Positions 5,328-9,143 of a DNA stretch of 64,000 nt are shown here, piece after piece (the stretch's first letter is position 1; every line of letters begins with the position of its first letter). Under the pieces are notes generated by a model. The model saw nothing but the letters and a program-made list of their open reading frames with translations. It did not search any database and was not told the DNA's origin. Made by a program: the position numbers and the translations under genes. Origin of the DNA: Paracoccaceae bacterium (GTDB taxonomy: Bacteria; Pseudomonadota; Alphaproteobacteria; Rhodobacterales; Rhodobacteraceae); contig CACDPP010000008.1 of NCBI GenBank assembly GCA_902554705.1, positions 1 through 64,000 of the forward strand, given 5' to 3'.

Positions 5328-5402
5328 TACGATCGAAATCCTGGGAACGCTCTATAAGAATTTCCAAGATTAAACTGGCCACCTTCGGGGGGCTTTACCA
5401 AA

Positions 5403-5417
5403 GGCGGTAAAACCGCC
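5403..5417 (+). promoter_or_regulatory. Small hairpin upstream of rplB start
   Basis: GGCGG at 5403-5407 pairs with CCGCC at 5413-5417, with an extra T-A pair and a three-A loop. It ends 26 bases before the rplB ATG. A purine-rich stretch (GGAAGACAGAAAGC) follows and supplies the ribosome binding site. The position suggests control of rplB translation, but there is no direct evidence. Confidence 0.35.
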
Positions 5418-5443
5418 GACATAGCAAACGGAAGACAGAAAGC

Positions 5444-7674: not shown

Positions 7675-8088
7675 ATGTTACAACCAAAACGTACAAAATT
7701 CCGCAAATTACACAAAGGCCGCATTAGGGGTTTTGCAAAAGGTGGTTCAGATTTAAACTTTGGGACCTACGGCTTAAAAGCTACGACACCTGAACGAGTG
7801 ACAGCTAGACAAATAGAGGCTGCTCGGCGTGCAATGACCCGTCATATGAAACGACAGGGTAGGGTTTGGATTAGAATTTTCCCAGACACCCCCGTTACAT
7901 CAAAGCCTGTAGAGGTTCGTATGGGGAAGGGTAAAGGCTCAGTTGATTTTTGGGCTTGTAAAGTAAAGCCTGGGCGAATGATGTTTGAAATAGATGGCGT
8001 GAACGACGATATCGCTCGTGAAGCTCTAAGGTTAGCGGCTATGAAACTTCCAGTTAAAACTCGGGTGGTAGTTCGCGAGGACTGGTAA
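7675..8088 (+). CDS. rplP: Large ribosomal subunit protein uL16
   Basis: uL16 organises the A-site and the central protuberance of the 50S subunit. The 137-residue product begins [11 protein letters not shown]. Arginine 82, in the segment VRMGKGKG, aligns with E. coli L16 Arg81, the residue hydroxylated by the oxygenase RoxA (YcfD). A strong terminator 25 bases after the stop closes this part of the S10 operon. The next gene, on the opposite strand, encodes a putative Fe(II)/2-oxoglutarate oxygenase, which is a notable neighbour for this protein. Confidence 0.98.
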
Positions 8089-8113
8089 TTATGTCAAAAA
8101 ACGACTAATTCAG

Positions 8114-8139
8114 CCCCCTGTTAACAAGGGGGTTTTTTT
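8114..8139 (+). terminator. Rho-independent terminator after rplP
   Basis: CCCCCT at 8114-8119 pairs with AGGGGG at 8127-8132 around a 7-base loop and is followed directly by seven T. This is a textbook terminator on the plus strand. It splits the S10/spc block here, so rpmC and the genes after it need their own promoter. Confidence 0.88.
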
Positions 8140-8141
8140 AT

Positions 8142-8756
8142 TCACCAGCTATAGTTAAAACTAATAGATATCCGCTCTTCTGACGACACGTTCGTTGGGA
8201 CTTCGTGGCGTAACCAGCTTTCCCAAAGCAAGATTTCCCCAGCCAAAGGATTTATGTATATAAAGGGTTTCAAATATTCTTTCGCAGTCACAAGTCTTGA
8301 AGGTGCGGCCATCATCATGGGGTGTCTGGGATCTTCAAATTTAATTGCGCTAGTTTCGGGTGGCATAGAGATGTAAATTGTTCCCGAGATTACCGAATTA
8401 GGATGGAGATGAGAGGAATGGTTGCCTCCCCCAGCTAATATATTGATCCAAATGTCTTCTAGTTTTAAACTGCGACCCTCTAAATTAAAGTCTAAATCTC
8501 CTGAAAAATGTTCAATGTGCAAGTCTAAAAGATTTTTCAGATCTTCAAAAATTGGTGAACGCCAAGTGAGATCACTTAAAGATGCATAACTCGTGTAGCC
8601 TGGGTAATTGTTTTCTTCACACCACTTTTGTCCTGCTTCGTCGTCTTGAGCGATGGACCAGCACGATTTTTCGATTTCAAGCATGTCGATTTTTCCAACT
8701 TCAGATAACCTTGCTTGGTAAATGGGCGTACTAAATAATAGTTTTGTTTTACTCAT
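8142..8756 (-). CDS. Putative 2-oxoglutarate/Fe(II) oxygenase (TIGR02466-like)
   Basis: The 204-residue product looks like the TIGR02466 / PF13759 family of putative 2-oxoglutarate- and Fe(II)-dependent oxygenases. What is visible: a histidine-rich segment (H113, H116, H118) followed by SG at 124-125, a PLAGE turn at 170-174, RHE with H184, and RISISFN with R195. In the double-stranded beta-helix fold these would be the N-terminal iron ligands, the distal iron histidine and the 2-oxoglutarate-binding arginine. The second ligand is not a clear HxD, so the metal site is inferred. No signal peptide or membrane segment is seen. It is a single minus-strand gene inserted between rplP and rpmC, converging on the rplP terminator. 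Its substrate is unknown; uL16 or another ribosomal protein is a tempting but unproven target. Confidence 0.75.
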   Translation of the reverse strand: MSKTKLLFSTPIYQARLSEVGKIDMLEIEKSCWSIAQDDEAGQKWCEENNYPGYTSYASLSDLTWRSPIFEDLKNLLDLHIEHFSGDLDFNLEGRSLKLEDIWINILAGGGNHSSHLHPNSVISGTIYISMPPETSAIKFEDPRHPMMMAAPSRLVTAKEYLKPFIYINPLAGEILLWESWLRHEVPTNVSSEERISISFNYSW

Positions 8757-8812
8757 GATAGTCTTTAATTATTATTCTAAATATGGGCTTAAAAATAAAT
8801 CTAGGCTAAGTC

Positions 8813-8841
8813 TTGCGTATCATCAATGATTTGCTTATACA
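8813..8841 (+). promoter_or_regulatory. Predicted promoter for the rpmC-onward spc operon
   Basis: A -35 box TTGCGT (8813-8818) and a -10 box TATACA (8836-8841) are separated by exactly 17 bases. They lie upstream of rpmC and downstream of the rplP terminator, where a new promoter is needed. A short stem (ACGATT at 8858-8863 with AATCGT at 8869-8874) lies in the predicted leader. Confidence 0.55.
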
Positions 8842-8945
8842 GCGCCAATCTTAGTGCACGATTATCAGAATCGTAATTTAAAATCATCCACTAGGTTAAA
8901 GGTTACCCAAATAGGGGCCTTCTAGTGTTAGAGAGGTGAATGGCA

Positions 8946-9143
8946 ATGAAAGCCGGTGAACTGCGTGAAAAAACGCCAGACCAACTTCGTGAAGAGCTAG
9001 CTTCTTTAAAAAAAGAATCCTTCAATCTTCGTTTTCAGCAGGCCACAGGTCAGCTAGAAAATACTTCGCGTATGAGAAGTGCCAAGCGTGATGCCGCAAG
9101 AGTATTGACGATATTGAACGAAAAATCCAAGGCTAGCGAGTAG
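8946..9143 (+). CDS. rpmC: Large ribosomal subunit protein uL29
   Basis: uL29 sits beside uL23 at the tunnel exit. The product is 65 residues from the ATG at 8946 ([17 protein letters not shown]); an in-frame ATG at 8940 would add two residues. I prefer 8946 because GAGAGG at 8931-8936 is then 9 bases away, whereas it is only 3 bases from 8940. The [15 protein letters not shown] segment is the family signature. This is the first gene after the inserted oxygenase. Confidence 0.96.

Follow-up and report, generated by a model that had tools for sequence, protein, structure and literature searches.

A putative Fe(II)/2-oxoglutarate oxygenase gene in the gap between rplP and rpmC of Rhodobacteraceae, at an apparent boundary within the S10/spc ribosomal gene cluster

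The window analysed here is the whole stretch of 64,000 nucleotides, and its first part holds four ribosomal clusters of a Rhodobacteraceae genome: str, S10, spc and alpha (gene names were assigned by eye). Within this block, the genes and signals that matter for what follows are these:

5377-5441, plus strand: L2-Alphaproteobacteria ribosomal leader (RF03142, 73.1 bits), 5′ of rplB
7675-8088, plus strand: rplP (uL16, 137 aa; PF00252), from the open reading frame and a profile match
8112-8134, plus strand: intrinsic terminator 3′ of rplP (stem AGCCCCC...GGGGGTT, followed by a T run)
8142-8756, minus strand: TIGR02466 family Fe(II)/2OG oxygenase gene, 204 aa, from the open reading frame, profiles and fold
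8812-8841, plus strand: promoter-like site of the rpmC unit, CTTGCG (8812-8817), 18 nt, TATACA (8836-8841)
8884-8941, plus strand (covariance model match): structured RNA leader candidate of rpmC, 13 bp, outer stem CACTAG/CTAGTG
8940-9143, plus strand: rpmC (uL29), which leads the unit rpmC-rpsQ-rplN-rplX and on

An earlier note on this DNA had placed a TIGR02466-like oxygenase gene on the opposite strand directly after rplP, and this holds. The encoded protein scores 262 bits with TIGR02466 against a cut-off of 62.5, over model positions 1-200 of 201, and 114 bits with PF13759 (2OG-FeII_Oxy_5) against a gathering cut-off of 27. Among the oxygenase matches listed, the closest named relative is that of Rhodobacteraceae bacterium AG-343-P20, with 97% identity. 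Relatives have the same gene at the same place, so neither chance nor an assembly artefact accounts for it, and the neighbourhood is not confined to this one genome. The oxygenase gene in the rplP-rpmC gap is a real observation.

The protein is predicted with a mean pLDDT of 91.7, and the model displays the double-stranded beta-helix fold of the Fe(II)/2OG oxygenase superfamily. Foldseek returned 334 PDB matches at E <= 0.001, the top 50 of which were considered. The best are 3bvc and 2rg4, with a TM of 0.97, and ranks 3-50 are 2OG-dependent enzymes, all but a few of them so titled, with TM values of 0.37-0.65 by query length. This fits the 2OG oxygenase that the earlier note had proposed. The first neighbours after 3bvc and 2rg4 include prolyl hydroxylases, namely a Dictyostelium PHD, human PHD2 and the P4H of P. 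putida, solved together with EF-Tu; mixed in among the neighbours are enzymes that act on small molecules (PolD, SnoN, MysH). Between them, 37 relatives matched 9 families at E up to 10, and PF08007 (JmjC_2) was none of these, which bears out the statement that the protein is not of the RoxA/JmjC type.

With respect to the active site, H116, H118, H184 and R195 are invariant in 37 aligned rows with identities down to 26% (residue numbers in this alignment run one lower than the protein numbering), and H113 is likewise invariant in these rows. H116, H118 and H184 are thus candidate iron ligands, and R195 is a candidate for binding 2OG. The replacement of the customary HxD/E by HxH in the putative first metal motif is unusual. 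An hhalign comparison with a PF13640 protein of the same genome gave a probability of 0.5%, a match too weak to place ligands, and a literature search on three-histidine triads in 2OG enzymes gave nothing on the TIGR02466 family by title. The genome of the window encodes a second PF13759 protein (L002, G000:C15:23805-24083), a long one that also has HxH and carries, as judged by eye, TPR-like repeats N-terminal to the oxygenase domain.

The location of the gene was determined for the best 80 of 576 confirmed relatives, all from named genomes, a choice that makes the sample favour close kin. In this sample of the best 80 of 576, the gene lies between rplP and rpmC at 63 loci, so that the comparison of rplP-rpmC spacers suggested earlier speaks for retention at this place. 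At 7 loci, one of the two genes is visible before the contig or flank ends, and at 10 neither was seen nearby (for four of these ten, L050, L056, L067 and L101, the contig is short or its end close, and the location changes on the tree were counted without them). The strand is variable: the gene is read like the ribosomal genes at 40 of the 63 loci and in the opposite direction at 23. The spacer between rplP and rpmC measures 0.85-7.3 kb at these 63 loci of the best 80, and the distance from the oxygenase to rplP reaches 4.3 kb.

What else lies in the spacer turns over quickly. Reading frames of at least 70 aa, picked mechanically and hence not gene calls, fall into 140 clusters at the 63 loci (best 80 of 576), 122 of them singletons, and apart from the oxygenase and apparent shadow frames on it, the most widespread frame is found at 5 of the 63; none is retained as the oxygenase is. 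By eye, the frames in these spacers (63 of L037-L116) include chemoreceptor, transporter and thioesterase-like ones. The gap thus appears to tolerate insertions, with the oxygenase kept by most lineages while other genes come and go.

An oxygenase match was obtained in 230 of 292 sampled Rhodobacterales, a figure that takes in a few distant homologues (e.g., in G117, G169, G192 and G286), and 62 were without a match. Of 82 genomes in which both the oxygenase and the rpmC leader described below are listed, 79 have the two on one contig and no more than 10 kb apart; among the remaining three, the distance is 11.7 kb in one and the two lie on different contigs in the others. This count draws on 83 oxygenase rows, those with handles up to G206 among the best-scoring places listed. 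The window's genus itself has two groups of the oxygenase, one with 79-97% identity to the window protein (L004-L008), the other with about 60% (L017, L018, L020-L022), and both sit at the same place. At a further locus (L012, G024), the order is rpmC on the minus strand, then the oxygenase and rplB on the plus strand; here, an inversion or relocation of the S10 half seems to have broken the cluster within the gap.

In a quick gene tree of 106 proteins (41 of 103 inner branches weakly supported), the Rhodobacteraceae sequences fall into one starred group of 89; on this tree, strand must have changed at least 10 times and location at least 6 times. The group includes five rows labelled as outside Rhodobacteraceae: L055, L085 and L193-L195. 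The last three (G550, G449, G612) are distant from ribosomal genes, and either transfer or wrong labels could account for them. Nine S10/spc genes were sought within about 5 kb of 20 homologous loci whose genomes are labelled as belonging elsewhere (17 of these loci fall outside the group of 89, with 39-53% identity), and not one of the genes was found at any of the 20. The lodging of the gene in the ribosomal cluster is therefore a feature of Rhodobacteraceae, as far as sampled, and a ribosomal link beyond the family is not supported. We also looked for neighbours recurring in at least 3 loci among these 20 and the ten family loci lacking ribosomal neighbours, which the search for the nine genes covered too. 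Frames overlapping the oxygenase aside, recurring neighbours turned up only at L177, L187 and L188, three loci of one other family. Homologues are also present in 197 phage records, mainly of phages of cyanobacteria, where the best listed have 28-30% identity.

The genomes that lack the oxygenase are informative in two ways. Thirty of them were checked for uL16, a subset of such genomes that includes five incomplete members of the genus, and it was found in 25. With rpmC in sight at 20 loci, the rplP-rpmC spacer measures 94-518 bp at 18 and 927 and 1187 bp at the other two; at four further loci, rpmC was not seen within 1.5 kb of rplP, and at one the contig ends. Because the spacer is mostly short without the oxygenase (18 of 20 at <= 518 bp), the large and variable spacer goes with the gene. 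In one such genome (G145), rplP (L199, G145:C14) and the leader with rpmC (L117, G145:C16) lie on different contigs, with room 3′ of rplP, and the S10/spc cluster may be fully split here.

The second point concerns uL16 itself, whose R82 had been offered as evidence for a modification by the oxygenase. This residue, which, following the earlier note, we take to be the equivalent of E. coli Arg81, is found at 76 of 76 loci with the oxygenase at which the position is covered, and at 25 of 25 without it (some rows in this count, as in those for terminator and promoter below, come from the same or nearly identical genomes, e.g., L004 and L037). Being invariant with and without the gene, R82 is uninformative on uL16 modification. 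Residue frequencies of uL16 do differ between loci with and without the oxygenase, by a statistic that ignores relatedness, and for that reason these differences were set aside. The RoxA domain (PF08007) was detected in 3 of 61 genomes and in 1 of the 37 of Rhodobacteraceae, and this sole genome (G026) also carries the oxygenase. For uL16, hydroxylation by RoxA (PMC5862935) and thioamidation by YcaO (PMC13063428) are reported. The idea that the oxygenase replaces RoxA or is linked to YcaO was dropped, because the RoxA domain is rare in the family and YcaO was not found in the window's own genome, which is 69% complete.

It had further been claimed that the insertion of the oxygenase required a terminator and a new promoter, both visible in the sequence. 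The terminator is indeed there: the scan found 2 overlapping sites at 8112-8134 against a shuffled mean of 0.8, and within the genus it is also present in L004, L005, L006 and L008, while it was not detected in L007. For the promoter, the sole match of a consensus scan, at 8748-8775, is not above chance (1 found, shuffled mean 2.4). A better-supported site is the CTTGCG-18 nt-TATACA block at 8812-8841, which is nearly unchanged across six members of the genus. The corresponding motif, [CGA]TTG[CA][ACG], 17-18 nt, TAT[AG], a pattern chosen after viewing the sequences, occurs upstream of rpmC at 67 of 100 loci (shuffled mean 0.8).

Neither signal depends on the oxygenase. Terminator-like hairpins follow rplP at 66 of 77 loci with the gene (shuffled mean 5.2) and at 20 of 24 without it (0.8), and the promoter-like motif precedes rpmC at 56 of 78 loci with the gene and 11 of 22 without it, the latter class including L146 and L148, whose genomes have the oxygenase elsewhere. 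As terminator and promoter are also present without the oxygenase, the insertion is not what requires the boundary, and we rejected the notion that it created them. Judged from these signals, the oxygenase occupies a putative operon boundary that exists independently of it, and the S10/spc cluster of Rhodobacteraceae looks like two units, one on the rplP side and one on the rpmC side.

The rpmC side carries an additional element. In an alignment of 50 leaders out of 98 distinct regions, with rows picked for showing the element and some of them cut at the 5′ end, 97.4% of the cells at the 13 pairs are standard pairs, a figure that drops to 52.3% and 55.4% when the partner is slid by one column. 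Double-change cells number 59, compared with 15.4 in shuffles, and 7 pairs have changes on both sides. Four regions (L129, L135, L140, L148) lack the element by eye and are not in the model. In 145 of 149 Rhodobacterales genomes, the covariance model, whose E-values are rough, finds a single copy of the leader, with genome searches run under stricter filters that lose weak matches; one of the four genomes without a match (G185) carries the oxygenase. It is present in 19 of the 20 oxygenase-lacking genomes listed by handle. In a class-wide sample, 3 of 240 genomes have it, all three Rhodobacteraceae, and these filters returned none in the other 237.

In 20 of 20 genomes checked, chosen to include the weakest matches and several without the oxygenase, the leader is no more than 10 bases away from rpmC and runs in the same direction. 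Its unpaired parts are conserved as well as its pairing, and an SD-like GGA lies outside the hairpin. Rfam 15 gave no match at curated scores, and a permissive search yielded one chance-level snoRNA match on the other strand. The idea of rRNA mimicry by the leader was dropped after no 16S match was obtained in G062. A literature search on an rpmC leader returned nothing on such an element by title, and a ribosomal leader survey from 2020 (PMC7247131) makes no mention of rpmC in its main text. On its covarying secondary structure and its lineage-wide position directly 5′ of a ribosomal protein gene, the hairpin at 8884-8941 is a candidate for a new ribosomal leader.

How can these observations be put together? 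Our preferred explanation, which we regard as moderately probable, is that a TIGR02466-type enzyme of the 2OG family sits in a boundary that is independent of it, with its substrate left open. The oxygenase would be an Fe(II)/2-oxoglutarate enzyme of prolyl-hydroxylase-like fold, in which H116, H118 and H184 would bind iron and R195 the co-substrate, and it would most likely couple the decarboxylation of 2-oxoglutarate to the hydroxylation of a substrate that sequence alone does not reveal. The boundary in Rhodobacteraceae would consist of a terminator after rplP, a spacer with gene turnover, and a promoter and structured leader before rpmC. It presumably lets rpmC and the following genes be transcribed separately, and by analogy with known ribosomal leaders, a protein of the rpmC unit may bind the hairpin and control the unit. 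The oxygenase appears to have been inherited largely vertically and may have been kept because the enzyme is useful. It would stay in place mainly because both of its flanks are anchored ribosomal genes, while small inversions within the spacer could flip its strand: conserved gene order on both sides makes a trapped gene hard to move out but allows local inversions, and this accounts for a constant place and a variable strand with no need of a functional tie. At the same time, retention in 79 of 82 genomes amid the turnover of neighbours is high for inertia alone, which leaves room for a functional link.

Such a link is what the earlier note had in mind. On this view, the protein would be a ribosomal oxygenase of non-RoxA type that hydroxylates R82 of uL16 or another S10/spc protein, and its gene would for that reason stay beside the genes of its substrates. 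The conservation of the neighbourhood (63 of 80 loci among the best 80 of 576, and the 79 of 82 genomes) fits this view, as do the rarity of RoxA/JmjC_2, seen in only 1 of 37 genomes of the family, and the presence of protein prolyl hydroxylases among the fold neighbours, one of them solved with EF-Tu. However, the strand varies by lineage and rplP may be as far as 4.3 kb away, so that there is no general co-transcription; none of the 20 homologous loci outside the family is near S10/spc genes; R82 is unchanged in genomes without the gene; G026 has both the oxygenase and a JmjC_2 protein; and 62 of 292 Rhodobacterales show no match. We thus consider a ribosomal substrate unlikely, and the position of the gene only hints at ribosome modification. 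A higher probability, though one short of even, goes to hydroxylation of a small molecule or free amino acid with no role in translation, by an enzyme whose gene an ancestor of the family acquired at the boundary, perhaps by way of a phage or another mobile source. Small-molecule oxygenases among the fold neighbours, the 197 phage records with homologues and a spacer that collects unrelated genes are all in keeping with this scenario, which is compatible with our preferred explanation because the latter leaves the substrate open. A phage source in particular is not supported, since homologues from other alphaproteobacterial families, with 39-53% identity, are closer than the listed phage ones, with 28-30%.

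For the hairpin before rpmC, we see it as rather unlikely that it is a 5′ element of a different sort, for example one that stabilises the RNA or is a site of processing, instead of a protein-binding leader. The SD-like GGA outside the hairpin would suit such an element, and protein binding by the leader is proposed by analogy; but the conserved unpaired parts, the single copy per genome and the position before rpmC in 20 of 20 genomes are as in known ribosomal leaders, and there is an L2-Alphaproteobacteria leader in this cluster as well, in front of rplB. The most far-reaching proposal joins the two subjects: the TIGR02466 proteins of Rhodobacteraceae would form a second, non-JmjC class of bacterial ribosomal oxygenases, encoded between the genes of their substrates; the S10/spc cluster would be split, and a new rpmC leader would govern its downstream half. 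We regard this as improbable. Taken as a whole, the interpretation from which we started is partly supported.

Crystal structures of TIGR02466 proteins have existed since 2007-2008, and our literature search found no function for the family. As the gene lies in a cluster that is among the most highly conserved in bacteria, a ribosomal substrate can be tested cheaply in cultured roseobacters. Furthermore, S10/spc appears to be cut into two transcription units family-wide, with a terminator on one side and a promoter and new RNA leader candidate on the other, such that the balance of the two halves becomes a direct experimental question.

With regard to known systems, the rpmC element resembles the L2-Alphaproteobacteria leader and other ribosomal leaders, as described in PMC7247131, in being a structured 5′ element of a ribosomal gene that is conserved in a lineage. 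Unlike the L2-Alphaproteobacteria leader, which is in Rfam, it is without a family in Rfam 15. The oxygenase, for its part, shares with RoxA (YcfD) of E. coli and R. marinus, a JmjC-type hydroxylase of uL16 Arg81/82, the class of bacterial Fe(II)/2OG enzymes, but the RoxA-type triad is H-x-D...H (PMC5862935), and the putative one of the window oxygenase H-x-H...H. RoxA is moreover a JmjC_2 protein, a domain without a match in the 37 TIGR02466 relatives. By title, the literature searched contained nothing on the rplP-rpmC arrangement of Rhodobacteraceae or on an oxygenase in the ribosomal operon of Rhodobacterales, and no function for TIGR02466, PF13759, 3BVC or 2RG4; TIGR02466 is named in a cyanophage genome report. 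The PHD-type prolyl hydroxylases (6t8m, human PHD2, and 4iw3, the P4H with EF-Tu) share the fold, with Foldseek E values of about 1e-6 to 4e-5 and a TM of about 0.5-0.65, at 10-17% identity to the window oxygenase, and their first motif is HxD, in contrast to the HxH seen here. The closest likeness is to 3bvc (Roseovarius nubinhibens ISM_01780) and 2rg4 (Oceanicola granulosus), which belong to the same family over their full length, with 63% and 60% identity. Both are labelled uncharacterised, hence no function can be taken from them. In R. nubinhibens ISM (L048), where the translation agrees with 3bvc, the gene likewise sits in the rplP-rpmC gap and is read against the ribosomal genes.
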